A model generated the notes under the pieces. The model was not told the origin of the DNA, made no database searches, and saw nothing but the letters and a program-made list of their open reading frames with translations. From NCBI GenBank assembly GCA_963920575.1, contig OY986969.1:18399288-18463287 (forward strand): a stretch of 64,000 nt of DNA, read 5' to 3'. The stretch is from Narthecium ossifragum. Lineage: Eukaryota; Streptophyta; Magnoliopsida; Dioscoreales; Nartheciaceae. The first letter of the stretch is position 1. The number at the start of each line of letters is the position of its first letter. A program made the position numbers and the translations under genes. Below are positions 17-62,200 of this stretch, piece by piece.

Positions 17-173
17 GATCGATCTTCACAGCATAGGAAGATCGATCTTCATCGAGATGTAGCCGCCAGTCAAGAACACAGATCAATCTTCATCCATAGG
101 AAGATCGATCTTCCACGAGACCATCAATCACACGGAAGAGAAAGATCGATCTTTTACCCTATAAAGATCGATC
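17..173. repeat. Paired GATCGATC palindrome array in family F LTR
   Basis: GATCGATC (one copy is GATCAATC) starts at 17, 40, 81, 103, 144 and 166. These form three pairs with internal spacings of 23, 22 and 22 bp and a pair-to-pair period of 63-64 bp. Most copies extend to an AAGATCGATCTT palindrome. The last copy ends 64 bp before the TATA box. The linkers are not obviously repeated. Confidence 0.8.
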
Positions 174-236: not shown

Positions 237-246
237 CTATAAATAG
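237..246 (+). promoter_or_regulatory. TATA box of family F LTR
   Basis: CTATAAATAG lies 64 bp downstream of the palindrome array, in the same relative place as TATA boxes in E1 and B. The transcription start is expected a few tens of bases downstream. The promoter role is inferred from motif and position. Confidence 0.6.
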
Positions 247-10273: not shown

Positions 10274-11606
10274 TGTCGCGCCCCGACCCGCGAAAGCGCA
10301 ACCGGGCCGGGCGACGCGAACCAGAACGTAACGAAACACGGAAAATTTGGTGAGGGTTCCCTCTAACCTATTGGTCTGCCTAACAATTCACCAAAAACAC
10401 CCTCAATTAAAAGACAATAATTTAAGCAAACCTCGAACCAAAGATTACAATCCCAAAAGTGTTTAATATATATATCCTCGGAGAGGGGAAGATCCAAATA
10501 CAACATTTACTCCCATAGGAGACTAACTAACAAGGTTTAAAGCAGTAAAAGATCGCCACCTCTCAGACTCCGCCTAGCGCCGCCGCATCGCCGACCAATT
10601 ACCAGGTAGGGGCCACCGAAGAGTAGTTAGCGCCTGCACCTGCAAAACGCAGCCCGGGGAGGAGTGAGCAACTAAGCTCAGCAGGGAAAGTACACTACGA
10701 CACTCAGAAGGAAGAAGGAAACACAACATTGTCGCCCTCAAGTAAGACCTGGGTGTATACAGAGGCCCCAAAATCCCACCACGTGTCCCTGAGGCCCACG
10801 ATAATGGTCTTCCAGAAGAACTGGTCACACGACAGGTAACACTCAATAAGCAAGAACTAACACTGCTAGCCCACAAGCAGGGAACGGCACTGCAGGCGGG
10901 AAATTGCACCGCTGAGTAGGCAACCCCTCTACTCAAGGGTCAACACAGTGGGACACCGGCTACACCTCAACATCCGACTCGAGGCCGACACGACCTCTAC
11001 AATCATCAAGCAACATGTGTATCAGTCATCTAGACCTATCATCGAATTTGACTGTACACCACAATTCAAACCGGGTCCAAACCACCCAACCCCCGGTCCT
11101 AGCGCTAAATCTGAGCTTTCAGCCTCGGGACGGCGACCCACAGACTAATGCATAACAGAAATGCATGCGATAAACAAACGCATAGAAAAACAGTTAAAGC
11201 ATGCAGCAGTATGTGATGATAGCATAACACGGCATGGGCTCGGCACACTGCCGGCCCGGGGTGGTGAACATATATTTAAGGTATGGATTTACTGCAGTGG
11301 TACACCACCAACTCCCTGCCAGTTCACCAGCAACCTGCATCGGGAAGTAGCCCTGCAAACAACAGAGACAAGCCACGCAGGTAAAAGCCCTCGGCGCACG
11401 CCGGCATGCAAGGCTATGGAAAGCAGTAGGGCTACCCGCCCACTTATTCTAAACATCTCAATAGTCATCACTCTTCTGGTTCACCACTACCCCTAATATA
11501 GGGCTAGCATGCCTAAAGAATATGTACAAGGTCTAAAGCTGTAAGAAATCTGTACATACAAAGCCCCACGGATAAAACCAATGAAAGCTCCTCTCTGTCA
11601 CCAAAG

Positions 11607-11865
11607 GATCGATCTTTTCTTAGGGAAAGATCGATCTTCCAAGTAATAGAGAGCCTTACCTTCCGGTCGAGCCAAAGAAGATCGATCATTCCTCTTAGGT
11701 AGATCGATCATCCTCGCGATAGAGGCACCCTCTAGTTGCGTCAAGGAAGATCGATCCTTCCTCCCAGGAAGATCCCATGCTACCCAAGGCACAAAGATCG
11801 ATCATATGGTGGATGATCGATCATGCTCGGGTTCAGTATGACCAACAATGAAGGATCGATCGATC
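11607..11865. repeat. Paired GATCGATC array in A 3' LTR (transcribed side)
   Basis: Copies start at 11607/11629, 11680/11702, 11749/11771 (second degenerate) and 11796/11815, plus a triple GATCGATCGATC at 11854-11865. Spacing within the first three pairs is 22 bp and the pair-to-pair distance is 73, 69 and 47 bp. The partner LTR has the same arrangement at 29273-29503. Confidence 0.8.
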
Positions 11866-12206
11866 TTGTTGGGTTCTCCGGCGAACCTCTGGCGAGAAAT
11901 ACCATCGAAAAAAGCCACCAATCCCACAAAACCTTGGGATCTGGTAGTACGAAGGACCACGAGTCCAAAACCGGTGAAAATACTATAAACTAACAAGTAT
12001 GCAGTGAGATCTAAGCAAAAGAAGACACAATCAACTCGAAACTCACAAAACCGAAAAACAAACATAGGTAGAATCCGTACCTAGGCAATAGCTGCTTTAA
12101 TCCCAGCTGCTAAGCCTTAGATCGTCCCAAATCTCCTCAAAATCCGGCAGCTCTGAGCTCAAGAACGCGGATTTCAAATGGGATTCAAGGAAGAGGGTTA
12201 CGTCCG

Positions 12207-12216
12207 TTTTATAGAC
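12207..12216 (-). promoter_or_regulatory. TATA box of A 3' LTR
   Basis: GTCTATAAAA on the - strand. The partner LTR has the same box at 29846-29855. GATCGATC at 12239-12246 lies 22 bp upstream, with further copies at 12285 and 12307. Confidence 0.6.
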
Positions 12217-12532
12217 AAAAGAACCGACCTTAAGGAAAGATCGATCCTTCATGACGATCGCGCCTTGACTTTCTGGTATTAAAAGATCGATCTTCTATCA
12301 AGGAAAGGTCGATCCTTTAGGTGCAGAAAGCTAGACTTGGGCTAAAACTAAAACTCAAGCCAAAGCCCGGATCTTTCGATCCCGGGTCCACCTAACCTTT
12401 CTAATCAAACACTAACACAAACATGGTCAGTGTGTGCACACGCGGGTGTGGAACAAACCGACAAGGTGCAATTTACTAAATTACCCTTGCGGTCTACAAC
12501 GAGCCACAGGGGTAGAGGGGCAGGTCCTCACA

Positions 12533-12550
12533 TCCTATTACCCTTAAAGG
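12533..12550 (-). promoter_or_regulatory. Polypurine tract of element A
   Basis: Read on the - strand, CCTTTAAGGGTAATAGGA abuts the 3' LTR start TGTGAGG. It follows a 'ctcgggacgagatt' stretch typical of the end of Tekay/Del elements. The pyrimidines CCTTT and TAAT weaken the tract. Confidence 0.6.
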
Positions 12551-15883: not shown

Positions 15884-16780
15884 CACAGTGAGGTGCTGTC
15901 GCAGGCACTCAAAAATAAATCCAGTACTCGTTAAAATAAATGTAGTAGTGCGAGTACGAGTCGATCCCACGAAGAGTGTTTAGCCTAGTTTTGTGCTCAG
16001 TGAACAAAGATAGGGGGTTTTAAACGTGAGTAAAAACAATAAAGAAATAATCTAAAGCGAAGAAACAAGTTGAATCAAGAGAACAAACCTTGGTATGAGT
16101 CAACATCCACCATCGGAATCCAATAACTGATCATAGATGCAAGTATCAATCAATTTATACCATGAATATTCATCGTCCGAATTCAATTCGAAGCTCTCCT
16201 CGATCATAGTTAATTAGAAACAAGCGATCTAATCAACCCTAACTACTAGACAACCTAAGACAAGCGATGTAGATTTAATCTAGTAGCAGCGTTAAGAATA
16301 GGGAGATCGATGAAGCTAAACAACACAAGCACAAGCGGTTGCATTTAATCTAGTTGAATATTCTTCCTAAGATCTAACAAGATCTGATCAGCAGTAAATT
16401 ATTAGATCCTAATTGCTTCGCAGATTAGAGGGATCAAACAATTCCGGATTTGATATCAAACCTAGCGGTCGATCACCATGAATAATAAACTAGTAGGCCT
16501 CCTAGCAATTAAACAAGGTAATCATGAAGATTTAATCTCAGAAGAACATCCAATACTCATGTATAAACTGAACAATAAAAATAAATTAGATCTCACAGTT
16601 TCATTGATTCCGAGGTTTCAGTCTCCTCGACCAAAGATCAAGATTTAGCCACGCAGGGCCATCAAGAACAATCCTCCAAAAGATTTCATAAAACAAAAGA
16701 AAACCTAGAGAAAATATAAAGGAGGAGAAAGAGTAGCCAAAAGTGTCCAAGAATCCCCCCTCAAACCCTAGAAAGAGTCC

Positions 16781-16790
16781 TATTTATAGC
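16781..16790 (-). promoter_or_regulatory. TATA box of B 3' LTR
   Basis: GCTATAAATA on the - strand, 62 bp after the last palindrome of the array. The 5' LTR has it at 25548-25557 and the solo B LTR a one-base variant at 55779-55788. Confidence 0.65.
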
Positions 16791-16851
16791 CTCAATTGTA
16801 TCCACCCTCGGATTAGATCACAATCGTTGATTTTTGTTACTGGGAAAGTCC

Positions 16852-17285
16852 GATCGATCAGACCTTGGATGCTGGATCGATGGGTCTCATTAAAATCTTC
16901 AACTTCTATTCACGCCCGAGCCCGATCGATCGGACTAAGGGAGTCGGATCGATCGATTTCGTAAAAATCCTTCGTCTCTGGCTCTTCCCGAGTTCGATCG
17001 ATGGTCCGATCGATCGAACTGTGTTCCTCTAAAAAGTATACGTTCTGTCGCCCTTTAATTCCCAAGTCCGATCGATCGAAGTATGAGTGTTGGATCGATC
17101 GGTTGAGTAAAAATCCGCTGTTTTTGACTTTTTCCGAGTCCGATCGATCGGACCATTGGTGTCCGATCGATCGGACCCCATAGGAGCGATGGATGGATCG
17201 ATCGGATGTGTTGTGGCTGAAAAACGCATGTTCTGTCACGTTTCTGCATTGTCCAATCGATCGGACCCTGGGTGTCGGATCGATC
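16852..17285. repeat. Paired GATCGATC array in B 3' LTR
   Basis: Copies start at 16852/16875, 16924/16947, 16996/17008, 17070/17093, 17142/17165, 17196 and 17255/17278. Spacing within pairs is 23 bp in five of six. The first five pairs recur every 72, 72, 74 and 72 bp. Many copies extend to GTCCGATCGATCGGAC. Linkers are only partly similar ('taaaaatcc...ccgag'). Confidence 0.85.
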
Positions 17286-17627
17286 GGACTGTTCAGCTTA
17301 TTCACTGCTTGCCATCCAAACTGCGCATCGGTACTAAAATTACCGTAACTTCCTCTAGGAAACTCGGAATCAGGAACCGTAAAATTCTCCAGAATCTAGA
17401 CTTCAAGAGCTTTCCAACCATATATGGCACATCCTCTGGTTCTTCATGAGCAGGTACAGATAAATCTTTAAAGTTGATCCATGCACTCTTTTCAGCTTCT
17501 TTTCGACTTAAGGACTTCAATTGCATCCTAAATCAAAATATAAGAATAATGAGTGTATTTAGGAACTAAATAAGCACAGGAGACCAAGTATTAAGGGATA
17601 AAAATATAACATTATGCATTCTCATCA

Positions 17628-22140: not shown

Positions 22141-24523
22141 CTAATTAGTACTCAAAGATATTTCCTCATTTTCTTCCTCCAGAGATTTGCTAATAGCCAC
22201 TTCCAATTCATCTTTATCACTAAGTTCAAAAACTTCCTGTGATAAATAATCAATCACATCAATTGAATACACTGAACAATCATCAGCAGGATATTTCATG
22301 GCATCATAAATATTAAACTTAACAGTTTCACCATCAAATTCCATGGTAAGTGTGCCACTATGGACATCTATCTTAGTCTTGGATGTCTTCAAGAAAGGTC
22401 TTCCCAACAAAATAGGAGTACTATGATCACCATTCTCCATATCAAGCACATAAAAATCAGCAGGGAAAACTAAATCATTGACCTGCACAAGAATATCTTC
22501 AACTACACATTTAGGATAGGCGTTAGATCTGTCAGCCAATTGAATCACAACACCAGTTTCATTCAAAGGCCCAAGTTTTAAATAAGAATATATAGAATAT
22601 GGCATGACATTGATAGAAGCTCCCAAATCTAACATAGCTTTCTCAAATTTGGTGTTACCAATTGTACATGGGATAGTAAACATAGCTGGATCCCTACACT
22701 TCGTAGGAATTTTTCTTTGAAGAATTGCAGAAACATTTTCCCCTACTTTCACCTTCTCACATCCTTTAAGTTTCTGCTTCCTCTTAATTGTGCACAATTC
22801 TTTCAAGAATTTAGCATAACGAGGTACTCGTTTAAGAGCATCTAAGAGTGGAATATTTACCTCGCATCGGCGAAAAGTCTCATATAGATCTGAATTCTTC
22901 TCATATTTTCTTGATTCTGTCAAAGCCCGAGGAAAAGGAGGTATAGGTTTATAATCAGAAAGAGGTGGAAACTTACGTTTAGGTACGTCATCGTCATCAG
23001 GAAAGATTTTGTCCGTGATAATATTTTGCTCTTCTCTTTGTGGTGACGATGTAGGAACTTCCTTTATTGGAGTCTCAACTTCTTTACCACTTCTCAACAT
23101 GATTGCACTTGCATTCTCTCTTGGATTTATTACCGTTTGAGAGGGTAATTTTCTCGAATTTTGCGCCTCTAGCTTGCTAATTGCTGACGCCATCTGGCCC
23201 ATTTGATGTTCCAAACCTTGGATACTTGCCTTTGCATCTTGTTGAAATTGTTTTGTATCTTGTTGAAATTGCATAGCACTAGTAGCAAGGGAATTAACAA
23301 TATCTTCTAAAGACATACCAGAATTCGGAGTTGGATTTTGTTGTGGTCTCGGGGGGTATGGCGGTCTATATTGTTGATATTGCTGTCCAGTTGGGCGAAA
23401 TTGAGTTGTAGGCTGATTCACTTGTGAATTCCCATAGTTGAGATTGGGGTGATCCCTCCATCCCGGATTATACGTGTTTGAATAGGGATCATACTTCCTT
23501 TGCGGTGGTCCTGAAAAACTCCCAGCTGCATTCACTTGTTCAATCGGATCCTCCTGAAGAGTTGGGCACATATCGGTTGGATGTCCCGCCACCGAACAAA
23601 TTCCACAAACCTTCGCTGTCTGCATATTACCTACAGCCATTTGACGAACAAGAGAAGTTAGACTCGCAATCTGTTGTTCAAGAGATGAAACATTTACCTC
23701 ATTAACATGTTTTGAATAAGAATCAAGCCTAGTATTAAATTGCTGAGAATTAGCCGCCATTTTTGCAATCAAGTTCCTCGCGGCTTCAGGAGTTTTATCC
23801 ACCAAAGCTCCTCCACTAGCTGCATCAATCATACTCCTGTCATTGGTTAGTAAGCCCTCATAAAAATATTGAATAAGTAATTGCTCACTAATTTGATGAT
23901 GGGGACAGCTTGCACATAATTTCTTAAAACGTTCCCAATATTCATGTAGAGATTCTCCATTATGTTGCCTTACACCACATATCTCTTTCCTAATGTTGGC
24001 CGCTCTTGAGGCTGGAAAATACTTTTCTAAAAACAACCTCTTCATCTCATTCCATGTAGTAATACTCCCAGATGGTAAATAATAAAGCCAATCCTTAGCC
24101 GAATCCTTCAAAGAAAACGGGAAGGCTCTCAATTTGATTTGATCTTCAGTCACCCCCATGGGTTTCATACTTGTGCACACCACATGAAGCTCCTTTAAAT
24201 GCTTGTGAGGATCCTCACCTGCAAGTCCATGAAAAGTAGGTAAGAGATGTATTAGTCCAGATTTCAATTCAAAAGTAGTAGCAACATCCAAAGTAGGAAA
24301 TGTAATGCATAAGGGTTGTTGATTCAAATCTGGGGCAAGTCCGATTTCCGGCCATGACTTCCTCTTCTAATTCCGAATCACTGATAAATACGTGATCAAG
24401 AGCCAAATCGTCCTCCTCAGGATTTATCCGAGCTTCTCTCCTTAACCTGCGCAAAGTTCTTTCTATCTCTGGGTCGTACTGTAAACCACCTTGATTAAAA
24501 GATCGAGCTATACTCATAAACAA
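22141..24523 (-). pseudogene. Element B gag and protease, with an N-terminal frameshift
   Basis: The N-terminus (24523 to about 24340, 'ARSFNQGGLQYDPEIERTL') and the main frame (24327 to 22141, 728 codons) are in different phases. They meet just after 'MAGNRT', where a short deletion seems to have occurred. The main frame holds the retrotransposon gag domain ('FPFSLKDSAKDWLYYLPSG', 'RQHNGESLHEYWERFKKLC'), a CCHC knuckle at about residue 240 ('CGICSVAGHPTDMC'), a Pro/Gln-rich linker, and an aspartic protease with 'DLGASINVMP' at about residue 565 and 'ILLGRPFL'. It ends in TAG (22141-22143). The next codons are CAG GAA in the same phase and lead into pol, so the stop is either a mutation or a read-through site. 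Confidence 0.92.
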
Positions 24524-24655: not shown

Positions 24656-26394
24656 TGATGTGCTGTCGCAGGCACTCAAAAATAAATCCAGTACTCGTTA
24701 AAATAAATGTAGTAGTGCGAGTACGAGTCGATCCCACGAAGAGTGTTTAGCCTAGTTTTGTGCTCAGTGAACAAAGATAGGGGGTTTTAAACGTGAGTAA
24801 AAACAATAAAGAAATAATCTAAAGCGAAGAAATAAGTTGAATCAAGAGAACAAACCTTGGTCTGAGTCAACATCCACCATCGGAATCCAATAACTGATCA
24901 TAGATGCAAGTATCAATCAATTTATACCATGAATATTCATCGTCCGAATTCAATTCGAAGCTCTCCTCGATCATAGTTAATTAGAAACAAGCGATCTAAT
25001 CAACCCTAACTACTAGACAACCTAAGACAAGCGCTGTAGATTTAATCTAGTAGCAGCGTTAAGAATAGGGAGATCGATGAAGCTAAACAACACAAGCACA
25101 AGCGGTTGCATTTAATCTAGTTGAATATTCTTCCTAAGATCTAACAAGATATGATCAGCAGTAAATTATTAGATCCTAGTTGCTTCGTAGATTAGAGGGA
25201 TCAAACAATTCCGGATTTGATATCAAACCTAGCGGTCGATCACCATGAATAATAAACTAGTAGGCCTCCTAGCAATTAAACAAGGTAATCATGAAGATTT
25301 AATCTCAAAAGAACATCCAATACTCATGTATAAACTGAACAATAAAAATAAATTAGATCTCACAGTTTCATTGATTCCGAGGTTTCAGCCTCCTCGACCA
25401 AAGATCAAGATTTAGCCACGCAGGGCGATCAAGAACAATCCTTCAAAAGATTTCATAAAACAAAAGAAAACCTAGAAAAAATATAAAGGAGGAGAAAGAG
25501 TAGCCAAAAGTGTCCAAGAATCCCCCCTCAAACCCTAGAAAGAGTCCTATTTATAGCCTCAATTGTATCCACCCTCGGATTAGATCACAATCGTTGATTT
25601 TTGTTACTGGGAAAGTCTGATCGATCGGACCTTAGATGCTGGATCGATCGGTCTCATTAAAATCTTCAACTTCTATTCACGCCCGAGCCCGATCGATCGA
25701 ACTAAGGGAGTCGGATCGATCGATTTCGTAAAAATCCTTCGTCTCTGGCTCTTCCCGAGTTCGATCGATGGTCCGATCGATCGAACTGTGTTCCTCTAAA
25801 AAGCATACGTTCTGTCGCCCTTTAATTCCCAAGTCCGATCGATCGAAGTATGAGTGTTGGATCGATCGGTTGAGTAAAAATCCGCTGTTTTTGACTTTTT
25901 CCGAGTCCGATCGATCGGACCATTGGTGTCGGATCGATCGGACCCCATAGGAGCGATGGATGGATCGATCGGATGTGTTGTGGCTGAAAAACGCATGTTC
26001 TGTCACGTTTCTGCATGGTCCGATCGATCGGACCCTGGGTGTCGGATCCATCGGACTGTTCAGCTTATTCACTGCTTGCCATCCAGACTGCACATCAGTA
26101 CTAAAATTACCGTAACTTCCTCTAGGAAACTCAGAATCACGAACCGTAAAATTCTCCAGAATCTAGACTTCAAGATCTTTCCAACCATATATGGCACATT
26201 CTCTGGTTCTTCATGAGCAGGTAAAAATAAATCTTTAAAGTTGATCCATGCACTCTTTTCAGCTTCTTTTCGACTTAAGGACTTCAATTGCATCCTAAAT
26301 CAAAATATAAGAATAATGAGTATATTTAGGAACTAAATAAGCACAGGAGACCAAGTATTAAGGGATAAAAATATAACATTATGCATTCTCATCA
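24656..26394 (-). repeat. 5' LTR of element B
   Basis: 1739 bp, ends TGATG/CATCA, matching the 3' LTR in length. The palindrome array is at 25619-26058 and the TATA box at 25548-25557. Compared with the 3' LTR, several palindromes are intact here but mutated there, and the reverse (for example 26046-26053 reads GATCCATC). Confidence 0.96.
25619..26058. repeat. Paired GATCGATC array in B 5' LTR
   Basis: Same layout as the array at 16852-17285, offset by 8767 bp, with 23-bp pairs and a period of about 72 bp. The first copy starts 62 bp upstream of the TATA box in the element's orientation. Confidence 0.85.
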
Positions 26395-27928: not shown

Positions 27929-29272
27929 AGCTGTCGTGCCCCGACCCGCAAAAGCCCAACTGGACCAGGCAACACGAACTAGAACCTAACTGAAAATTTG
28001 GCGAGGGTTCCCTCTAACCTATTGGTCTCCCTAACAATTCACCAAAAACACGCTGAATTAAAAGACAATAATTTAAGCAAACCTTGAACCGAAGATTAAA
28101 ATCCCAAAAGTGTTTAATATACATATCCTCGGAGAGGGGAAGATCCAAATACAACATTTACTCCCATAAGAGACTAACTAACAAGGTTTAAAGGAGTAAA
28201 AGATCGCCACCTCTTAGACTCCGCCTAGCGCCACCGCATCGCCGACTAACTACCCGATAGGGGCCACCGAAGAGGAGCTAGCGCTTGCACCTGCAAAACG
28301 CAGCCCGGGTAGGAGTGAGCAACTAAGCTCAGCAGGAAAACTACACTACGACACTCAGAAGGAAGAACGAAAGGCAACAATGTCGCCCTCAAGTAAGACC
28401 TGGGTGTATACAGAGGCCCCAAAACCCCACCACGTGTCCCTGAGGCCCACGATCATGGTCTTCGAGAAGAACTGGTCACACGACGGGTCACACTCAATAA
28501 GCAAGAAGTAACACTACTGGAAGCAGGGAATGGCACTGCAGGCGGGAAATGGCACAGCTGAGTAGGCAACCCCTCCACTCAAGGGTCAACAAAGTAGGAC
28601 ACCGGCTACACCTCAGCATCCAACTCGAGGCCGACACGAACTCTACAATCATCAAGCAACAGGTTTATCAGTCATCTAGACCTATCATCAAATTTGACTG
28701 TACACCACAATTCAAACCGGGTCCAAACTACCCAAGCCCGATCCTATGGCTAAATCCGAGCTTCCAGCCTCGGGATGGTGACCCACAGATCCCCCACGCC
28801 CTAACCATGCAACTAATGCACAACAGAGATGCATGCGATGAACAAACGCATAGAAAAATAGTTAAAGCATACAATAGTATGTGATGATAGCATAACACAG
28901 TCTGGGCTCGGCACACTGCCCACCAGGGGTGGTGAACAGATATTTAAGGTCTAGAGCTGCTGCAGTGGTACACCACCAATTGCCAGCCAGGTTACCAGCA
29001 ACCTGCATCGGGAAGCAGCTTCGCAAACAACAGAGACAAACCAAAAAGGTAAAAGCCCTCGGCGCACGCCGATATGCAAGGCTATGGAAAGCAGTAGGAC
29101 TACCCCGCCACTTATTCTAAACATCCTAGGAGTCATCACTCTCCTGATTCACCACTACCCCTAATATGGGGTTAGCATGCTTAAAGAATATGTACAATGT
29201 ATAAAGCTATAAGAAATTTACATACAAAGCCCCGTGGGCAAAACCAATGAAAGCTCCTCTCTGCCACAAAAG

Positions 29273-29503
29273 GATCGATCTTTCCTCCCAGGAAGATCGA
29301 TCATCCTCGCGACAGAGGGCACCCTCTTGCTGCGCCAAGGAAGATCGATCCTTCCTCCCAAGAAGATTGATCTTCCTCGCGACAAGGGGGATCCCATGCT
29401 ACCCAAGGCACAAAGATCGATCATCCTCACCAGATGATCGATCATGCTCGGGTTTAGCTTGACCAACAATGAAGGATCCATCTTGTTCCCAGAAAGATTG
29501 ATC
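29273..29503. repeat. Paired GATCGATC array in A 5' LTR (transcribed side)
   Basis: Pairs start at 29273/29295, 29343/29365, 29415/29436 and 29475/29496, with spacings of 22, 22, 21 and 21 bp and pair periods of 70, 72 and 60 bp. It lies downstream of the TATA box in the element's orientation, so LTR transcripts would include it. Confidence 0.82.
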
Positions 29504-29875
29504 GTGTTGGGTTCTCCGGCGAACCTCCGGCGAGAAATACCATCGGAAAACTCCACCAAATCCCACAAAACCTTGGGATCTGGTAGTACGAATGACCACG
29601 AGTCCAAAACCGGTGGAAATACTACAAACTAACAAGTGTACAATGAGATCTAAGCAAAAGAAGACACAATCAACTCAAAACTCACAAAACCAGAAAACTA
29701 ACGTAGGTAGAATCCCTACCTAGGCAATAGCTGCTTCGATTTCAGCTGCTAAGCCTTCGATCTTCCCAAATCTCCTCAAAATCCGACAGCTCTGAGCTCA
29801 AGAACACGGATTTCAAAAAGGATTCAAGGAAAAGGGTTACGTCCGTTTTATAGACAAACGAACCGACCTGTGAAT

Positions 29876-29974
29876 GATCGATCTTTCCCTAAGGAAAGAG
29901 CGATCCTTCATGACGATCGCGCCTTGACTTTCTGACACTAAAAGATCGATCTTCTATCAAGGAAAGATCGATCT
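29876..29974. repeat. Paired GATCGATC array in A 5' LTR (upstream side)
   Basis: Pairs at 29876/29898 (second is GAGCGATC) and 29945/29967, both 22 bp apart and 69 bp from pair to pair. The array starts about 20 bp from the TATA box. Confidence 0.8.
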
Positions 29975-30185
29975 TTTAGGTGCAGAAAGCTAGACTTGGG
30001 CTAAAACTCAAGCCCAAGCCCGGATCTTTCGATCCCGGGTCCACGTAACCTTTCTAATCAAACACTAACACAAACATGGTCAGTGTGTGAACACACAGGT
30101 GTGGAACAAACCGACAAGATGAAATTTACCAAATTACCCTTGCGGTCTACAACGAACCACATGGGTAGAGGGGCAGGTCCTCACA

Positions 30186-32010
30186 TGTGACCTTTAACCC
30201 ACTTGGTGGCCACAATTCATCGATCAACCACCACAAGAGCGTTCACAGAGCTTCCACGATGCTTCCTCCGCCATCCCCATCCTCCGGTGATGACGTTTCA
30301 ATGTCGACCCAGAGCTTCCCGACGTGATCCAAGGGCTCCAGAGTTTAGATTTCAGATCAGATGGCCCAGATATTCGATCAATGCCAGATCAAGAACCCCA
30401 AATCATCTTGGCGTCCCAGAGCAACCCCAGGTATTCAATTTTGTGCTTATCCACAACATTCAATTCTATTCTAGCTGTAGGCTGCAGACCATGAATAGGA
30501 TGAGCAGTGGTGCATATGATGAATGATTTGGTGCTCTGCTTGGATGTTTTTGGGTCTTTGTTTCTTTGTCTGTGATGTCTAGATGATTGTTTATGCTGCT
30601 ACTGTGATCTCCGTTACTACTTCCTATGCATTTGTTATTTTGTTTCATGGGATTAATGCTTGTACATGATTGATATATGCTAAGAATTACAAAGGAGACT
30701 TTGCAAAAAAATTTCATGAATTTAGTACCTTTTGTAATCTTTTGGTGAACTTCTTTGTTATTTTTCTTGATCTTTTGGAAAGGTACGTCTTTCAATGGCA
30801 GGGGTGAACATATTAGAATTTCGATCAGATCTGGGTGGTGTCTACTTTTTTGGAAAAGTTTCCATTCCTTTACCTCTTGTTCTATATGGTTTATAATTGG
30901 AATATTTTTTTGTGCTTCACTTGTTCAACCTTGAGATACGGGATATGACTGGCAGGATATAATTCAGTGTTATTGGTGGAAGCTTGCTAACCTTCAATTG
31001 CATGAGAGAGAAATATTTTTGAGGTGTTTATTATGGTTATATCCACCCTTTATTTCTTGCTTTATTTTTATGACTTAGTGTAATTAGGAACAATTACATT
31101 TAAGTTGGGGGTAACATTCATGATTTGATGCTTATATTTTTTTCTGATAACCAATATTATACACCCTTGAGTTATGTCATGAGAATGAAATTGTGATATT
31201 GATTGATTAAAGATACTTTATTTAGAAACATATTTTATGATTTACTTTGATTCTCATTTGTACTATAAAAAATAACTAAATTTTTGCTATGTATGATATT
31301 ATTTCTATATTTCAACACTTTTGCCATGAATTAAGGATGACTTGACATATCCCAATGCATATGTTCACTTCCACATGTTGATGAGTTGATATTAGATTCT
31401 AAGCATGACACAATGATGGATTTATGACTTTATGCCATGTTATATGAAAGTATGCAATTGAAAAATAGAGGTTTATATGCAAAAAAGGGTTTCATACTTA
31501 GTAACTGGGCAAGGTGCCTAACTAGGTGTGTTGTTCTGGTAAAATAGTTGAAATTCCTAAAAAATGACTAGTTATGATTTGTAGCCTTCATGGTTTGAGT
31601 ATTAGAGTCTAAAGGTTGTTCTACACTTAGTACTCTGAAGTCATGTGGTTTGGGAGTCACTGGTTTAAACCTTTTTACATTGCACATGTCATGAAAAAAA
31701 AACGATATTGCAAAGTGGTGAACGAAAATATGAACTTGGCCAAGTTCGTATTCTTGAATGGTTGAAGTGTTTGGATAAAATTGATACTCTTAGACATATG
31801 GAACCCTTTTCACACACTTGGATTGTTAGAGTTGTTCTTAATTGTGGTTAAATATGTTGAATTGTTGGAAAGATGTTTGGCATGCATTGATTTGCTATTA
31901 TTTTATCTTACTATGGGTAGAAGAATAAAGTCATGGGTATCATTTCTATTTTATACATTAGAGTTGATGAATATTGTGATTCATTTCTATTTTATAATGG
32001 AAAAATCAGG
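30186..32010 (+). repeat. Non-coding interior of the old family C element, right of element A
   Basis: Collinear with C1 interior 48850-46990 read on its - strand. Shared stretches include 'ggctgcagacc', 'gatgctctgcttggat', 'tgatgtctag', 'caaaggagact' and 'cttagtgtaatt...acaattacatttaagttggggg'. No coding sequence. This is the long 3' untranslated interior typical of this family. Confidence 0.75.
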
Positions 32011-33078: not shown

Positions 33079-35046
33079 TGTGAAGACCCGGTCCTCTAAA
33101 TCTGGCTCGATCACGTAGGTCGGGGGTCATGTCCTGTTGGCTTGTTTCCGCGTCGAACACGATATGTTTGATCGCATTGTTGATTTTGGACCCCGGCTAG
33201 GGGAAATTTGGTAAATTACACACTGGCGATCGATTTCACACTCGCGTAGTGCACACATAGCCCTATGAATGATATATGTGCCTATTAGAACCTTAGAGAG
33301 CTTGGCATCGAAAGATCCGAACTTGGGCGAGAAAGCTTGTCCTTAGGACTGCTAGTGACCCTAGAGCGATTGAGCGGAGAGATCGGTCGGCACTGACGTT
33401 GACGTGTCCCGATAAGGACGATGAACCGACCTAGTCCGACCGATCGGTGTTGTTGACCGATCGATCGGACTCAGGTTCCATAAGAGCCCGCGAAGGCTCT
33501 GTTTTTCTTTTTTTTTCCTTCTTCCTTCTTCTTCTCTCCACCGTTTACTTTAATTCGAGAGGGGAGCTTGGTTGGATTTTAATCGGATTTAAGCAACTTT
33601 TCATTGGCTAATTTCTAGATTTCCTGGTTTAATTAGAACAGCTATGTTTGAGCTAGATTATAGAGTTGTACGTGCATACTCTCAGTTGATCTTGAACATG
33701 AAAGTTGTAGATCTTAGAGTTTAGTTTCAAACCCAACAATTTTTGTAATTTTTGATATTTCTATTATTTTTGGTGATGTTTATCATGGAGTGCGATGAGA
33801 AAGATCTGAATCTGCATGAGCAGTTGGATCGATCCAAACCAGTTTTGGATCGATCCAAACCCAGCGACAGGAGGATGAGTGAGCCTGAAACGGTTGGGAT
33901 CGATCCAGACTTGGGTTGGATTGATCCAGACTTTGGTTGGATCGATCCTAACCTGGATGATGAGGTTTTATTGACTGTTTTTATGGTTTTCGAAGCTATC
34001 TTTGATTCAGTTTTTGAGGAGATCTTTGTGTTGATAAATTGATGTTAATGTAGATTGTTTGCTTAGTCTCATGGAGACTTGTTGGCCCATGTGCCTATTT
34101 ATGCACTTTTATCTACACCCATGCTATGTTCACCCCCTTTGCGAGCTATATGTTGTGTCTAGCCCCGTGTATTACTTAGCATACTGTTGCATGCCTGAAA
34201 ATCTTAAGTATGTGCGTGTGAGAATACCTGCATTTGATTGCATTAGAGATATTCTAGGTTAGGAAGTAGGCGATGAGTTGATCACCGATCCAAGGGCTCA
34301 GGCACCTCGGATTATCTAGGCTTAGGACCGAGTCTGGGTAGCAAGGTTTAGCGCGAGATTGTTATTGTAATTATTGCTTTATTGTGCCAAGGTTTAAGGT
34401 GGTTTAATTATTGTTATGCCTTGGGCTGGTTTCTGATCAGTCATGGGGTTTGGGATGCATTGAAGATGCACTGAAATCCCTGTTTGTTCTACCTTGGTCA
34501 CACATCGAGGAGCGCTTAGAGCTATGTGATCATCATCGTGGTTGTTTAGTTTTTTGCTGATGTAGTTAGTTATACCTTAGACTTGGCAGAGAGAGATGAC
34601 ACAGCTTGTAGTTCTATTTTCTTTTGAGTGTCGTAGAAAAGAACCCGATTGCGCTTATCGCTTACTCCTACCCGAGCTGCATTTGCAGGTGCAGGCACCA
34701 ACGCTTTCGTAGCTCCTAGCGGATCAGCTTTTGGTGACGCATCGACTTCTGAGGGTGTTTGAAGTTTTTGAAGACCCTATTGTACTTTTGTTAGTTTTGT
34801 TTACAGACATCCTTCGAGAATTATGTTAAATGTATAATTGTTAAATGTATAATTTCCTCCTTCGTGGAGTTTTGATGTTATTGTATCAGTACATTTTGGC
34901 TTAATATTAGAGATTATAGTTTTTGCCTCAGATCAATTGTTTAAATTAGATATCTTAGTTTATTATAATTGAGCCACATATGGATTGAATAGATTTCAAA
35001 CCTTCATGCCCTAGACCGGATAGGTTTTCTAGGTCGGGGTGAGACA
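33079..35046 (+). mobile_element. Solo LTR D2 (Tekay-related family D)
   Basis: 1968 bp, from TGTGAAGACC to GTGAGACA, with a perfect TSD ATAAC (33074-33078 and 35047-35051). It shares blocks with D1, D3 and D4: 'gcattagagat', 'ctcggat...taggaccga.tctgggtag', 'gcaggcaccaacgctttcgtagctcctagcggatcagcttttggtg'. It is the shortest D copy and lacks the GTAGGG donor-like site of D1 and D4. GACCGATC/GATCGATC copies are at 33438-33466. Confidence 0.88.
33827..33947. repeat. Paired GATCGATC array in D2
   Basis: Copies start at 33827/33848 and 33898/33919/33940 (33919 is GATTGATC). Spacing is 21 bp throughout and the pair period is 71 bp. Most copies extend to TTGGATCGATCCAA, a palindrome different from those in A, B and F. 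Confidence 0.82.
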
Positions 35047-35966: not shown

Positions 35967-36959
35967 CATACTTATGTATCTTCGACACAGTATTCAAATT
36001 TGATGAAATTAGTTTTCTTCTATGATGCATTAATGAATTGAGCTTTCTTCTTGCAAAATTTGTGAGGATGTTTGTGCCCATATTATCTCTTTTTTTTTAT
36101 AGTTTACACTAGGCTGATGATCGACCCTCTCATACGAGCGATGGCCTTGACGCTGAGTGCGGACATGATGAGACAATAAGATCACTAAGTACCACTTGCA
36201 AAGTGATCCCTTTTAGTGCTGAATAAGCTTGAAGGTTATTTTTGGGTGTCGCCTTAGTAAGTCTAAGAAGAGACTGATGAAGTCGAACATGGAGTATGTC
36301 CACATCTCCATGAAGCCTATACAACGCCAGATGTGAGATGCTTGAGATATTGGTTGAGTACCAATTGTCTCGAGATGCTCAAGTTATACTAGGGGTGACA
36401 ATTCGGGTTCGCGGGTCGGGTCGGGTCAGGTTTGGGTTCGTTTAATAAAGGCCAAACCCGAACCCGACCCGTTTAATAAACGGGTTAGATTTATAAACCC
36501 GAATCCAACCCGTTTATAAACGGGTCAACCCGACCCAACCCGTCTAACCCGTTTAATAAACGGGTTAGACGGGTCGGGTCGGGTTGACCCACCACGGCCC
36601 AAGAGGGAGGAGGCACTACTGAGGCAACGCTCGGCGTCGGTGGTGGGATCTGGCTGGGAAACGGTCGGAAAAGAGTCGAAGAGGAGAGGGGGTCACAGAT
36701 TCGATGTTAAATAGTATCGGGGAGGCCGGAGATGGGGGGATCGAACGGTGGTGGCGCCAGATCTGAGAGGGCCAGAGGGGTGATGGAGCTTGTAGAGATC
36801 TCGACAAGTCAGGGCGACAGAGCAATGGCGCTGAGCGGCGTCGATGGCATTGGTGGGCGTCGTCGAATCTGGTGCTGGGCTTCGGGGTTGTTGGCCTTAG
36901 AGGAGTGGGGAGCTAGGACAGTGGTGGGGCTCGTGGTCGTGGACTGCGATCGGGCCTCG

Positions 36960-54887: not shown

Positions 54888-56543
54888 TGATGTGCTGTCG
54901 CAGGCACTCAAAAATAAAACCAATACCCGTTAAAATGAATGTAGTAGTGCGAGTACGAGTCGATCCCACGAAGAGTGTTTTGCCTAGTTATGTGCTCAGT
55001 GAATAAAGATGGGGGGTTTTAAACGTGAGGAAAACAGTAAAGAAATAATCTAAAGCGAAGGAACAAGTTGAATTAAGAGAACAAACCTTGGTCTGAGTCA
55101 ACATCCACCATCGGAATCCAATAACTGATCATAGATGCAAGTATCAATTAATTTACACCATGAATATTCATCGTCCGAATTCAATTCGAAGCTCTCCTCG
55201 ATCATAGTTAATTAGAAACAAGCGATCTAATCAACCCTAACTACTAGACAACCTAAGACAAGCGCTGTAGATTTAATCTAGTAGCAGCGTTAAGAATAGG
55301 GAGATCGATGAAGCTAAACAACACAAGCACAAGCGGTTGCATTTAATCTAGTTGAATATTCTTCCTAAGATCTAACAAGATCTGATCAGCAGTAAATTAT
55401 TAGATCCTAGTTGCTTCGCAGATTAGAGGGATCAAACAATTCCGGATTTGATATCAAACCTAGCAGTAGATCACCATGAATAATAAACTAGTAGGCCTCC
55501 TAGCAATTAGACAAGGTAATCATAAAGATTTAATCTCAGAAGAATATCCAATACTCATGTATAAACTGAACAATAAAAATAAATTAGATCTCACAGTTTC
55601 ATTGATTCCGAGGTTTCAGTTTCCTCGACCAAGGATCAAGATTTAGCCACGCAGGGCCATCAAGAACAATCCTCCAAAAAATTTCATAAAGTAAAAGAAA
55701 ACCTAGAAAAAATATAAAAGAGGAGAAAGAGCAGTCAAAAGTGTCCAAGAATCCCCCTTCAAACCCTAGAAAGAGTCCTATTTATAGTCTCAAGTGTATC
55801 CACCCTCGGATTAGATCACAATCGTTGATTTTCTTCACTGGGGAAAGTCCGATCGATCGGACCTTGGATGCTGGATCGATCGGTCTCATTAAAATCTTCA
55901 ACTTCTATTCACGCCCGAGCCCGATCGATCGGACTAAGGGAGTCGGATCGATCGATTTCGTAAAAATTCTTCGTCTCTGGCTCTTCCCGAGTTCGATCGA
56001 TGGTCTGATCGATCGAACTGTGTTCCTCTAAAAAGCATACGTTCTGTCACCCTTTAATTCCCAAGTCCGATCGATCGGACAATTGGTGTCGGATCGATCG
56101 GACCCCATAGGAGCGATGGAGGGATCGATCGGATGCGTTGTGGCTGAAAAACACATGTTCTGTCACGTTTTTGCGTGGTCCGATCGATCGGCGGATCGCT
56201 CGGACTTCCACATTATTTTCCTTTCTGCCATTCAGACTGCGCATCGGTACTGAAATTGCCGTAACTTCCTCTAGAAAACTCGGAATCACGAACCGTAAAA
56301 TTCTCCAGAATCTAGACTTCCAGAGCTTTCCAACCACGTATGGAACATCCTCTGGTTCTTCATGAGCAGGTACAGATAAATCTTTAAATTTGATCCATGC
56401 ACTCTTTTCAGCTTCTTTTCGACTTAAGGACTTCAATTGCATCCTAAATCAAAATATAAGAATAATGAGTGTATTTAGGAACTAAATAAGCACAGGAGAC
56501 TAAGTATTAAGGGATAAAAATATAACATTATGCATTCTCATCA
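54888..56543 (-). mobile_element. Solo LTR of family B
   Basis: 1656 bp, TGATGTGCTG...CATTCTCATCA in + orientation, as in the two LTRs of element B. Flanks are CTCTC on both sides, which fits a 5-bp TSD but lies in a CT microsatellite, so it is not independent proof. It is shorter than the B LTRs mainly because about one palindrome unit and neighbouring bases are missing (around 56070 and 56190). Array 55851-56207, TATA variant 55779-55788. Confidence 0.92.
55851..56207. repeat. Paired GATCGATC array in the solo B LTR
   Basis: Same order as in element B, but with one 72-bp unit absent: the pair equal to 17070/17093 is fused with that equal to 17142/17165. This suggests unit loss by recombination between palindromes. 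Confidence 0.78.
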
Positions 56544-59183
56544 CTCTCTCTCTCTCTCCCTTTGTTTCTTCCCCGTGCGAAAGCTTTCCCCTTCTCCTCC
56601 CTCACTCGCGATCTAGCCGGTCACTCCTCTCTCAGGAGCTTCTTCGCCACCGTCGCCGGCTACCACTCCTCCCTGAGCTCCTCCTCACCTCTATTGAGTT
56701 CCCCAACCTCCACTACCATCAAATCTGACCCTCTCTCCTCCTTCCCTTTCTCCTGAGCTCGCCGGCAGCCCTCTTCCTCGCTAATCGATGATCTCCGCCG
56801 CCACCAAACTTCAGCGCCTGGAACAATGTCGGGGGACGAAGACCAAGCTGGATCTCCTCTTCTCCGAGCTGGCAAGTAGGGTTTCCTACCTGAATCATTG
56901 ATTCAGTTCTAGGATAGGTCTCTATTGTGATTGTGGGTTGTTTCCTTCATTGTTTGAATGCACATTCATGCTAGATTGGTTGCTGGTTTTGGATTTATAG
57001 ATTTCAGATTTGATTGAGAGGGTTTTCAATCGTATTTTTGTGGATTTCTTCCTCCTGCCTTGTTTCCCTGAGCTTGGATTTCATCTAACGTAGGTCTAAT
57101 CGTGTGTTGATGATTTTTAATTGGAGTTTATCAAGCTGTTCTTCCTAGATTTGGTTTTCAGCCCCTGGATCTGTGCATCCAGCCATCTTCTGCTTGAAGA
57201 TGGTGCTATTTCGTGAGGAATCTCATGAAGCGTTCATCATGAAGGTTGTAGATCTTCGGATATACTTTCAATTACCGATGATTTCATAATTTTCAGATTT
57301 TTCTATGATTTATGATGAATTGTTCCCTGATCTGCGGCGAAACTGAATCTTTGATAAGGTTTGGGTTTTTGACCGAATTCTGAGTTTATCTTGATTTCTT
57401 GCTTTGATCTTTCTCGGTAGATTAATAAGAATGCTAGATAATATGTATATTAATCCTAGTGGGATTTTGATGGATTTGGGCATGCTTAGTTCTATGTCAT
57501 GTTTATGGAGGTTCTGTCCTTTTATGCAAATTGATATATTTTATGTGATGAATACTAGTATGCTAGTAGGAGACTTTTAGATTGATTTCATATGAATTTA
57601 ACGTGGATTTGTCGAGGAATTAGGCTTGGGTTTTCTATTTAAGAAAATGCTATCTTAGATGAATTTCCTCGATTCCCCTTATCGATGTTATGGTAGCATT
57701 TCTTATCATGTTATAGATATGTGTATTTGTAATTCATATCATGTTAGTATATTTAAATGCCAAGTCTCATAAGAATGGATTGGTTTTTATTTCTTGTTAT
57801 ACCATGTGTATTCCTTCGCCGATTTCATGTACTTAGAAGCTTACTTCAAATTTTAGCATGGTATCTATATTATATATATATATATCTGTGTGTGTGTGTG
57901 TGTGTAGGCCCTATGTGTGGCCCAGCCCTATGTGAGGCTTGATGTTGAACCAGGGGAGTCATGCCCCTTGGGATGTTTAGATAATTAAATGGGCCGAAGG
58001 TGTGCCCTTGTTTGAATGATATTATGCATGATTTGGATAATTATATAAGTAGAGTGTATGTCTAATTGATGGATGTCTTGAAGTATCTGTGATGGCCTAT
58101 GCATAAACGTTTATTCCTTTATCTTGTTAGCTTGTTATCTCATTCTTTCGGACGATTGTTTGATGATATGGCATGTAGAGACACCTAGGTCTAGTTATTT
58201 GAATAGTCTCATACATGATGCTTGCATTAGAAGCATTCAGGATAGGTGGTAGACAATGTGTTCGATTGCCGATCCAGGGTTCTTGGGTAGCCCGGATCTA
58301 GCCCTAGGACTGGGGTTTGGGTAGTCGAGGATTAGAACGTGATTGTCATCAGTGATTATGTTTGATATCATTTGAGATTATTGTTATAGTCGACTATATA
58401 TATTATATTATTGTATTTGAGGTGTAGAGGTCATGTCTGGTCTCCAAGGCCAAGTGCTAAGAATGGATGTCGATCTCCATGACTTGTGTGTCCCCGCGAG
58501 AGATGGTACGACTTGGCAGGGTGGTAACTGGACAGGACCCCACAGTCTTTGTTTCCTCTCGTTAATTCTTGGGTGAGGGTGGGACCTGGACAGGAGTCCT
58601 CGGGAATTGACGGGGTTATGGGGCCCCTTGGCATATTTTAGACTTAGGTGGAGAACGACATAGTTATAATTTCCCTTTCTTTCTGTCCGACGTATAGTAG
58701 AACCCTACTGGGCATTAATGCTCACCCTACTTGGGCTGCATCGGCGATGCAAGTCAATGCAGTTCCTTCTTTCATATGTTTGATGAGTGCATGAAATTGC
58801 ACTCTGAACATGACTAAGAGCAGCTTATTTGCTGAGTTTTCATGATTAATATAGATGATTTCGTCCGTATATGTTGCTTCACAAAGTTATTTATATTATG
58901 TAGGAAATTGAAGAAAAGATGGGTCTTTAATGCCAAAACTGTACCTTCTTGGAACGAACCAGATGATGTGCCATACATGGTTGGAAAGCTCTGAAAGTCT
59001 AGTTTCCGAGAGTTTTTACGGTCTGTGATTTGAAGTTTCCTAGAGAAAGATATGCCATTTTTAGTACGAGAGGTGTGGGAGCAAGCAGCTACGGAAGACG
59101 ATGATTGATCCGATCCCAAATAAGATCGAGCTATTTTTGTGCTCAGACGCTGACAGAGAGCTGACAGAGGACCAATTATAAAA

Positions 59184-59262
59184 GATCGATTTGATCCTTA
59201 AAAGATCGATCTGAACCTGGGCGATTTAGAAGTGACCCAGTCTACAGAGACAGAAGATCGAT
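59184..59262. repeat. GATCGATC palindromes in E2, with D4 inserted in one copy
   Basis: Copies start at 59184 and 59204 (20 bp apart, both GATCGATT/GATCGATC type) and at 59256. The last is split by D4 and completed at 62588-62593; its partner at 62607 would be 21 bp away before the insertion. Confidence 0.75.
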
Positions 59263-62200
59263 TGTGAGGACCCGTACCTCCAACCTAGTCCGACTGCGTC
59301 GGTCGAGGGTCTGGTTCAGCTGGTTTGGCCCGGTTGGCCTTGCATCGCGATCCCCTTTGGTCGTTGCGGCTCCGGGGGTAAGTTGGTAAATTACCCTAGG
59401 CAGAGTGGGTTTCACACACACGTAGCGCACACACAACCTTGTAATGATGTATGTGCTTGCCTAGACTGTTAGGAGCACCATAGCTCGGAGGATCTGGGTT
59501 CGATCGTAAGGATCGAGATTTGAGCGGCTAAGATCAGATTCGGTTGATCGGATGGCCAAGATCTTTTCTTGAGCCGTTCAATAATAAGACCCTTTAATTA
59601 ACATTCATCTCCCGCTAGGGCATCAGCGGCGATTGAGAGAGAGCTCATCGCGACGAGAGAGAGAGAGAGCGGGTCGTGAGAAGATCCCGTGCGGTGGCGG
59701 CAGCGCGTGCATCCACTTCCGAGAGTCTAGGCTCTCCACTGGCGACCGCAACCGGAGAGGAGAGGACTTGGCGACGTCGACAGGGGGGAGCTAGGCAGCG
59801 ACAAACCTGGCGACTGCTGTGGAGACGGAGAGGTCGACGGCGACTACAGAGAGCTCGACGATCGGCTGGAGAGGAGAAGATCTCGACGCCCAGAGGTAGG
59901 GTTTCTGATCTAATCTCCTGATTAGGCTCTACTAGACTAGAGTGGATTGGCTTGATGCGTGTTTCTTTGATTCCTCTATGGCTACTCTGTTTCCCTTCTT
60001 CCTTCTCTTGTTATGCCATGCTCTATTTTCCATTGCTACAATATTGTGCTACGACTGGATGCTTCGATGGTTGTTGGATTGATGAGAATCTCTCCCTTCT
60101 CTTTGCTGCTTTGTCGAGATACATGCTAGACTAGGTTCGTGTGAGGCTATCTTCTTCCCTGTGGTTGTGATGTTTGGTTTTCCTCGTTGAGTCCGTGGCT
60201 TGGTTGGAGGTTTTCTTCTTCTCTTTGCTGGTAGCTGGGGATTGTTGGCTCTGCTCTGTTCTCCGTGGTTTGTTGGTGTCTGATGCTCTATGGTCTTGGC
60301 TCTTGTGATGTTCTCCCCTTCCTTCACATCGGTAGCTCAGGTTTAGTGATTGTCGTGGTATTTTATTCCCTTCTCTGAGGTTATGCCTTGATTCTCTGAT
60401 TTTGCTGCCGTTGCTCTGTTTTTCCTCGCTGCCATGTACTTCGACGCTATGCCTCTGTTTTGTTCTCTGCCGCCGTGGGTTGCTGGTTTGATCGATGGAC
60501 GATCTTGGTTTTCTTCTCTGTTTTAGGTTGCCGGATTTCTTTGGATCAACTGCCGATCCTTCAGCTCTCGTGATCTCTGTTTTGGGGACTGGTTGTTGGA
60601 TAGATGTTGATATGTTCTCGAGGGTTTGGATTTCCTCTCCTCTGCGATGTTTCATTAAGCTTAGATTCCATCTCAGAAAGATTCAAACATACCTTGAGAT
60701 GCTTTGATCAAGCTTTGATCAAAGTTCTTCCCAGATTTTGGTTTCGACCCCTGTCCTAAGCACCAGCCAGCTTCTTCCCGAAGCAGGTGCAATTCCGTGA
60801 GAATCTCACGAAGACTTCATCGTGAAGGTCATAGATCTCCGAATCTACTCTCAATTGCCACTGATATCGTAATTTTTCGGATTTTCCTATAGTTTACAGT
60901 GAATTATTCCCTTATTTGCGACGAAACAGGACTTTTTATAAAAGCTTGGAGTTTTGGCTGAAATATGGATTTCCTTCGATTTAGGTACTTCGTTCTTTTT
61001 GCCTAAGACTAATAAGGATGTTAGATAGCATGCACTCTTATTCTAGAGGAATTTCGAAGGATTTGTGCATGTGTAGCCTAGGTGTTATTTATGCAAAGCT
61101 ATCTTTTCTTACAAATAATCTACCAGCATGTTTTACTTATATATATGTAATATATAAATGTACCAAGTTTATTAGAATTGAGTTGGAGGTTCTGGCTTTG
61201 ATCTTTGTTGTCCACCAAATTGCTTCCCTCCCTTTGAAGTGGATGTCGGATTTGTGTTTTTCAATTATGTCAATTATATACTCTTGTATCATGCTTATGC
61301 CTAAGGCCGACAGTGTGCATGTTCCTATTTCTTTTGCGTTGGAACCAAGGGAGTCATGCCCTTGGGATGTTTAGATAATTAGATGGGTCGAAGGTGTGCC
61401 ATTGTTTGTTGAAGGATATTATGCATGGTTTGGATAAGTATACACGTGGAGTGTATGTTTAATGGATGGGTGTCTTGTAGTATCTGTAGTGGCTTTATGC
61501 ATAAATGTTTATTTCTTTATCTTGTTAGCTTGTTATTTCATTATGCCAAACGATTGTTTGATGATATGGCATGTCGAGACATCTAGGCCTAGTTGTTTGA
61601 ATAAGCTCATGCATGATGCTTGCATTAGAGGCATTAAGGCTAGGCGGTAAGCGATGGATTCGATCGCCGATCTGGGGTTCTCGGGTAGCCGGAATCTAAC
61701 CCTAAGACTGGGGTTTGGTTAGTTTAGGACTAGGGCGAAATTGTGTGGTCATGATCTTGTGTTGATCGAGGTTGCAACCTAGATATAATCGTTTGAATTA
61801 TGATATTGAAGAATAGAGGTCGTATTGTCTGTTTGCCCCAAGGACCTAAGTGTGGATGTCGATGTCCATGACGTATGTCCCCGTACAATAGGTGGTGTAC
61901 GGTGAGAGCTCCGGCGGTGAGTGCAGCGGCGATGCACCGACCCTGTGTCTGGGCTCGTGTTGGCAGTCCTCCTTGTTTCGCCGCTTGGGTGAGAGTGACC
62001 CTATTTAGGGGCCCATTCTGGATCGACGAGGCGTGATGCCTCCAGTGACACCTTAGACTTGGGATGAAGGACAATACTGTTGTGGTTTCCCCTCCCTTGA
62101 GTGTGACGTAGAGTAGAACCTTACTAAGCATTGTTGCTCACCCTACCTGGGCTGCATCGGCGATGCAGGCCGATGCAGTTTCTTCTTTCAGGTGCCCTCC

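Follow-up and report, generated by a model that had tools for sequence, protein, structure and literature searches.

Palindromic arrays in retroelement promoters

Arrays of host-factor sites are found in the regulatory regions of several retroelements, such as the su(Hw) array of Drosophila gypsy, the BII boxes of Tnt1 and the heat-shock elements of ONSEN. Each of these belongs to one element family and to a known or suspected factor, whereas the palindrome described here is shared genome-wide. The closest known kind are the palindromic repeated-motif (RM) boxes of Sireviruses (Bousios 2010). According to the available portions of that paper (PMC2829016), these boxes number 8-32 per Ty1/copia element and mostly occupy the LTR's upper half, upstream of the TATA box; their palindrome differs by element, a CGG-CCG core is found in 12 of 13, the boxes define CpG islands, and a cis-regulatory role is suspected. 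In maize, the regulatory region of the LTR is reported to hold clusters of Sirevirus palindromes that are predicted to be strongly structured (available portions of PMC5311732 and PMC10760457). In addition, a GATC motif bound by GATA factors has been described for plants as a strong and dose-dependent expression motif, which is single and short and acts in the 500 bp following the start site (Voichek 2024; PMC11525189, as far as its available text goes).

In the monocot Narthecium ossifragum, the eight-letter palindrome GATCGATC builds arrays which resemble the Sirevirus boxes in that many copies of an element-variable palindrome lie in the LTR upstream of the predicted TATA box; the Tnd-1 RM box ACAATCGATTGT even has ATCGAT in common with GATCGATC (PMC2829016, available portions). 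Both the hosts and the cores differ, however, since flank homology and domains place the arrays in Ty3/gypsy elements of Athila and Tekay type and not in Ty1/copia Sireviruses, and GATCGATC is used genome-wide in place of CGG-CCG. Furthermore, the copies form 20-23 bp pairs in a helical register that includes the TATA box, while the available text on Sirevirus RM boxes (PMC2829016) gives no spacing rule. Small-RNA mapping has been shown for the maize palindromes (in the portions available), whereas the present arrays are known from sequence alone. With the plant GATC motif the arrays share the GATC core, but they consist of doubled palindromic cores upstream of a predicted TATA box instead of a single downstream motif (PMC11525189, available text). 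An earlier note on this DNA had held that no described plant element fits; this is unsupported, because the Sirevirus boxes resemble the arrays. New here are the gypsy lineages, the one genome-wide core, the helical phasing and the TATA register.

No title or abstract on GATCGATC arrays or on a helical register in gypsy LTRs was found, with the subscription literature mostly outside the full-text search, and the available part of PMC11302176 contains nothing on LTR palindromes. One stretch, L023:4443-4620, lies downstream of a copia reverse transcriptase and holds an array of GGTCGACC with gaps of 29, 62, 63 and 21 bp together with one GATCGATC. GGTCGACC falls within the published Vitis Sirevirus RM CGGTCGACCG, and this copia-associated array suggests one wider kind.

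Abundance and sampling

In the 379.4 Mb host genome, GATCGATC occurs 202,613 times compared to 8,576 times for a reversed control word, and two copies stand 18-26 bp apart in 77,976 cases compared to 24 with the control. The window, i.e. the whole 64-kb stretch of DNA that was analysed, contains 65 exact copies and only one of the reversed control CTAGCTAG. Besides the window, the sample, drawn from this one plant genome, comprised 25 stretches of 10 kb each: 15 were taken at fixed positions and 10 near listed matches. Among the fifteen fixed-position stretches, GATCGATC was the most over-represented 8-mer (98 seen, 2.4 expected), and 82 of the 98 sites sit in 11 arrays of at least three. Defining an array as at least three exact GATCGATC sites with gaps of at most 130 bp gave 37 arrays, grouped by sequence into 18 families; the array density of the whole sample is biased because ten stretches were picked for matches, while array geometry was not selected except that pairs were required in these ten. 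A broader survey for clusters of any one palindromic 8-mer found 48, namely 37 of GATCGATC, four of the overlapping word TCGATCGA and seven others, each seen once; among four other-palindrome contexts examined, the GGTCGACC array in L023 was the sole clear parallel to the GATCGATC architecture. In viral contigs, at least 120 stretches matched, and each of the 80 matches listed is one pair, which was taken as chance.

Arrays of the window

The array B1 (16852..17285, minus strand) lies in the 3' LTR (15889..17627, minus) of element B, an Athila-type element with gypsy-type RT/RNase H/integrase domains, and consists of 10 exact GATCGATC sites and degraded cores. Five of its pairs (16852/16875, 16924/16947, 17070/17093, 17142/17165 and 17255/17278) have a spacing of 23 bp each and the sixth (16996/17008) has 12. 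Its predicted TATA box CTATAAATAG is located at 16780..16789 (minus), with TATAA beginning 63 bp after the end of the last site, or 71 bp from start to start. The 5' LTR of element B (24656..26394, minus), to which the 3' LTR is 98.2% identical, has at its inner edge the PBS-like sequence TGGCGCCGTTGCCGGGGA, presumably of the tRNA-Asp-like type. It carries array B2 (25619..26052, minus), with 11 exact sites up to 26029 and a degraded core at 26045, and a predicted TATA box (25547..25556, minus) at the same distance as in B1. A further B-type LTR copy, B3 (54888..56543, minus), for which no partner copy was seen within the window, has an array of nine exact sites and one degraded core at 55851..56201 (minus). 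The promoter of array F (17..173, plus; palindrome AAGATCGATCTT; 17/40, 81/103 and 144/166 with spacings of 23, 22 and 22 bp) can be aligned with that of B, its predicted TATA box lying at 237..246 (plus) with TATAA starting 64 bp past the last site.

Element A is a Tekay-type chromovirus, possessing an SH3_Tf2-1 domain and LTR ends which we take to be chromovirus-like. Its 5' LTR (27932..30186, minus) is 85.6% identical to the 3' LTR (10274..12533, minus) and contains two arrays. The first A2 array (29876..29973, minus) has the pairs 29876/29898 and 29944/29966, both of 22 bp, and a predicted TATA box at 29847-29853, whose TATAA begins 23 bp after the last site. The second (29273..29503, minus) is found downstream of the predicted TATA box, with pairs 29273/29295 and 29343/29365 of 22 bp and 29415/29436 and 29475/29496 of 21 bp. 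In the 3' LTR, the arrays span 11607-11865 and 12239-12314, including the pairs 11607/11629 and 11680/11702 (22 bp each). The D arrays (33381..33947, plus) combine GATCGGTC/GACCGATC-type sites at 33381-33466 with GATCGATC at 33827-33947, where the D2 pairs 33827/33848, 33898/33919 and 33919/33940 are each spaced 21 bp. A copia-like insert had been proposed as host of D2, but its flank matches, albeit weakly (77% over 57 bp), a Tekay-type LTR.

Array C1 (52791..52907, minus; TCCGATCGGTCG), with pairs 52791/52811 and 52876/52896 both at 20 bp, is located in the leader of the Athila-type element E, about 200 bp inside the 5' LTR. The degraded E2/G array (59103..59263, plus; 59103/59124 at 21 bp, 59184/59204 at 20 bp) stands in a stretch which, by reading, resembles the start of the B LTR. 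With one-mismatch cores admitted, the listed window spacings are recovered at their coordinates, in agreement with what had been claimed for F, A, B (23 bp in five of six pairs), D2, E2 and C1; the family-specific palindromic flanks are likewise present. A series labelled E1 (20, 22 and 21 bp), for which no coordinates had been given, could not be assigned to a position. The LTR of element E itself lacks GATCGATC, and hence the system is not universal. By reading, this LTR (53105-54571) has palindromic stretches resembling GAATATTC that recur at intervals of about 180 bp, possibly a different motif with the same role.

Among the matches listed for pol, identities are 53-78%, and most are from apple and other eudicots. 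Some further features of the window lie outside the arrays. Rfam snoR71 (RF00097) matches at 23891-23997 and 51983-52089 (plus); at both places the match runs antisense to a gag ORF, each belonging to a different Athila-type element. Either gag contains a snoRNA-like stretch or repeats have gone into the seed of this Rfam family. A DUF4216 ORF (41739-42461, plus, 88 bits) contains a domain typical of CACTA-type transposons, and a 41-bp unit starting CCAAACCCGAATCC is repeated in tandem in 2.9 copies at 36452-36570.

Spacing and helical register

Although pairs 18-26 bp apart were allowed in the genome search, the first 100 of the 77,976 pairs listed are all spaced 19-23 bp (19 bp in 2, 20 bp in 13, 21 bp in 15, 22 bp in 58 and 23 bp in 12), with none at 18, 24, 25 or 26 bp. 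The 20-23 bp spacing put forward in the earlier note is real genome-wide; the rule proves wider and extends as a register of about 10.3 bp over whole arrays. Taking one array per family (18 arrays), site positions have a mean phase coherence of 0.380 at a period of 10.3 bp, compared to -0.011 (sd 0.042; best of 1000, 0.135) in a control with gaps jittered by up to 5 bp. Pair-centre distances among the first 100 genome pairs listed also peak at 10.3 bp. When gaps above 24 bp are counted once per family, the 45 distinct values cluster at 39-42, 48-51, 59-63 and 71-72 bp; three lie at 44-46, and the range 52-58 is empty. Their best period is 10.1, and their coherence at 10.3 was equalled by none of 20,000 jitters. 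All 37 arrays together contain 98 long gaps, not independent counts because families are related, of which 32 lie at 48-50, 23 at 59-63, 13 at 39-42 and 7 at 71-72 bp, compared to off-register gaps at 44-47 (6) and 54 bp (2) and one gap of 68 bp. The 48-50 bp gaps are 1.5-3.5 bp shorter than five turns and come into register only when summed with the 22-23 bp pair, giving about 72 bp or seven turns. A flat distribution of spacings, which had been named as a possible refutation, was not seen in the first 100 matches of two genome-wide patterns, in the 25 stretches and in the window. As claimed earlier, spacing is also better kept than sequence.

A period of 10.3 bp may also point to nucleosomes, with CpG palindromes on one face setting the rotational position of an LTR-promoter nucleosome or repelling it. 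An array span of about 70-450 bp is compatible with this, as is a CpG observed/expected ratio of 1.19 in arrays versus 0.67 in flanks. An exact 8-bp core with family-specific dyad arms, however, exceeds the needs of rotational positioning, and sites recur at 20 bp or more and not at each 10 bp; we regard this explanation as very improbable.

Symmetry of sites and pairs

The symmetry of the sites extends beyond the core. Over 278 contexts, the 4-bp arms are complementary at frequencies of 0.56, 0.60, 0.41 and 0.50 per position, compared to 0.28, 0.30, 0.27 and 0.34 after shuffling, and complementarity falls beyond four bases. These arms vary by family; in 5 of 18 families they are, by majority, fully palindromic, and the other families have partly palindromic arms. 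The commonest degraded core is a transition at the central CpG (15 versus 1.0 expected), a pattern that would fit methylation decay. A third motif between pairs did not emerge: GACAGA was present in 6 and CTGTCA in 7 of 17 gapped families, and a conserved GACAGA was rejected as not significant because the mean maximum for shuffled 6-mers is already 7.35 families; for 7-mers, five families compare with 5.0 after shuffling.

In isolated pairs (16 families), the linker-facing arms match each other more often (0.73) than the two arms of one site do (0.55), an excess seen in 14 of 16 families and reversed in one, which speaks for a unit of two sites with the linker at its centre. This excess is not predicted by a plain dimer-site model. 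It is predicted if each pair is an inverted repeat with arms of about 12 bp and a loop of 4-7 nt, selected as RNA or cruciform, in which case the arrays would give rise to 21-24 nt small RNAs or be targeted by them, like the maize Sirevirus palindromes, on whose regions small RNAs gather (PMC5311732, PMC10760457, available portions). The drop in complementarity after four bases and the folding of B1 RNA, which is better than that of shuffles (z -6.7, 0/100), agree with such a hairpin. Good folding is trivial for paired palindromes, though, and the four families with chain arrays lack the inner-arm excess (0.47 versus 0.51). Moreover, a 10.3-bp register over arrays and to the TATA box has no evident role in RNA folding, and a hairpin or small-RNA hotspot appears improbable overall.

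Register with the predicted TATA box

All TATA boxes considered here are predicted from sequence. CTATAWA occurs within 200 bp of 18 of the 37 arrays, compared to 1.7 expected. Where TATAA lies within 140 bp, its distance from the last exact site (site end to TATAA) is 63-65 bp in 14 arrays, 53 bp in one, 23 bp in three and 11 bp in one, whereas five arrays have TATAA at other distances only (60, 72, 101, 118 and 131 bp). The remaining 13, among them six Tekay-type first arrays (L012, L014 twice, L016, L017 and L020), have none within 140 bp on either side. Measured from start to start, the distances of 71-73, 61, 31 and 19 bp correspond to about 7, 6, 3 and 2 turns (19 bp being 1.8), placing the TATA box in the array register in 19 of 37 arrays; seven turns, rarely six or eight, are used in Athila-type LTRs and three in one Tekay family. 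Genome-wide, GATCGATC lies 45-74 bp ahead of CTATAAATA in 6,905 cases (3,547 + 3,358), compared to 3 in the control. Of the first 100 genome matches listed for Athila-type LTRs, which are not independent because near-identical copies are included, 95 have the last site 71-73 bp from the TATA box; the other five are at 61, 61, 68, 70 and 82 bp within an allowed range of 54-83. Between array and TATA box the linkers are widely divergent in sequence, and the cases at 61 and 82 bp are off by about one turn. B-like promoters in which the array and the TATA box are about 10 bp, or roughly one helical turn, closer together (61 bp as against 71) were also observed at L024:3104-3190 and at C1 places 6979459 and 6984837.

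These data bear on the two constraints that the earlier note had suggested for the pairs. Two helical turns are the better candidate because distances over whole arrays follow 10.3 bp and the TATA box shares the register. The length of 21-24 nt small RNAs is not supported, since distances are not confined to that range: those near 41, 50, 62 and 72 bp and the TATA register are unpredicted by it, by which it is ruled out as the spacing rule.

Where a TATA box is predicted, the arrays lie upstream of it, as in the Athila-type elements, while Tekay-type elements also have a second array downstream. This position matters for host GATA factors as the binders, with GATCGATC read as two overlapping GATC motifs. 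YVGATCBR adds expression per copy and is recognised by GATA factors (PMC11525189, available text). The core provides the inner flank for both GATC motifs, and the second Tekay array stands downstream of the predicted TATA box. The motif has minimal effect upstream of the start site according to the same available text (PMC11525189), whereas in Athila-type elements the arrays precede the predicted TATA box. Its flanks are not enriched either, being found at 196 of 556 half-sites (0.353) compared to 0.375 at other GATC, and a match via the published flanks was rejected on this ground. GATA factors are the best named lead for the binder because GATC is a strong plant expression motif; as the flank and position tests do not favour them, we consider this assignment unlikely.

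Host lineages and descent

Athila- or Tekay-type gypsy LTRs hold 36 of the 37 sampled arrays. By flank homology, 21 are of Tekay type (four of these placements being weak, 41-57 bp) and nine of Athila type; six more have an Athila-type promoter, five by alignment and the sixth by belonging to the same family, and one is unplaced. Two arrays matched both references and were assigned to the better one, and the match of L025:2541 may come from a neighbour. The names Athila and Tekay rest on element features (domains, PBS, LTR ends). In Tekay-type loci, a first array is found near the LTR start and a second further in, 565-568 bp apart at four loci and 380-447 bp at others. That the arrays span both types, as had been noted before, is supported by flank homology and by the pol and SH3_Tf2-1 domains.

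The earlier dismissal of common descent was too broad, since thirteen Athila-type promoters, whose palindromes differ, can be aligned from the last site as far as the TATA box, and descent likely accounts for much of the sharing within this lineage. To judge from these alignments, the array was likely inherited within the Athila-type lineage, and within each lineage the arrays likely descend from one common LTR. Descent does not explain the core and spacing common to Athila and Tekay types, which probably share the core through exploiting one host factor.

The arrays might alternatively be a functionless by-product of tandem duplication in ancestral LTRs, with a spacing inherited from one founding unit. 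Besides the alignable promoters, tandem units of about 62-72 bp in arrays and the common spacing within families are in line with this. Tandem duplication alone, however, would repeat one unit length, whereas several unit lengths near whole turns are observed, with 20-21 bp chains and units near 62 and 72 bp representing different arrangements. TATA distances of 61, 71-73 and 82 bp likewise fall near whole turns, sequence has diverged where spacing has not, and the Tekay arrays occupy other positions in another lineage. A pure by-product is, in our view, quite improbable.

A model for the arrays and its implications

Based on the core, the family-specific 4-bp arms, the pairing at 20-23 bp and the register near 10.3 bp that includes the TATA box, we infer a host protein, its cooperation and activation, and consider it probable that the arrays are U3 enhancers composed of cooperative palindrome pairs for a dimeric host factor, presented on one DNA face toward the TATA box. 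Each GATCGATC with its arms would bind one protein dimer, and two dimers two turns apart would act together as a cooperative unit. Copies facing the same side of the helix would stack toward the basal machinery at the TATA box, and the bound putative protein would help activate the elements. Tandem duplication would multiply the arrays, of which only those preserving the helical register would persist. Repression rather than activation is also possible as the effect. The TATA distances of 61, 72 and 82 bp make this DNA-face model directly testable.

More tentatively, and with considerable doubt on our part, one host complex could be the regulatory entry point for unrelated gypsy lineages, its dimers assembling on helix-phased GATCGATC scaffolds into a one-sided nucleoprotein filament in register with the TATA box. 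If true, a single factor acting on about 200,000 GATCGATC sites could control or silence most LTR promoters together.

If the enhancer model is right, plant LTR promoters can follow a strict helical geometry legible from sequence alone, and separate gypsy lineages have converged on, or exchanged, one host binding site, which would have grown into the most over-represented 8-mer of the sample. The unexplained Sirevirus palindromes may then belong to a wider rule, and the arrays offer a testable route to the host factor governing much LTR transcription in Narthecium ossifragum.
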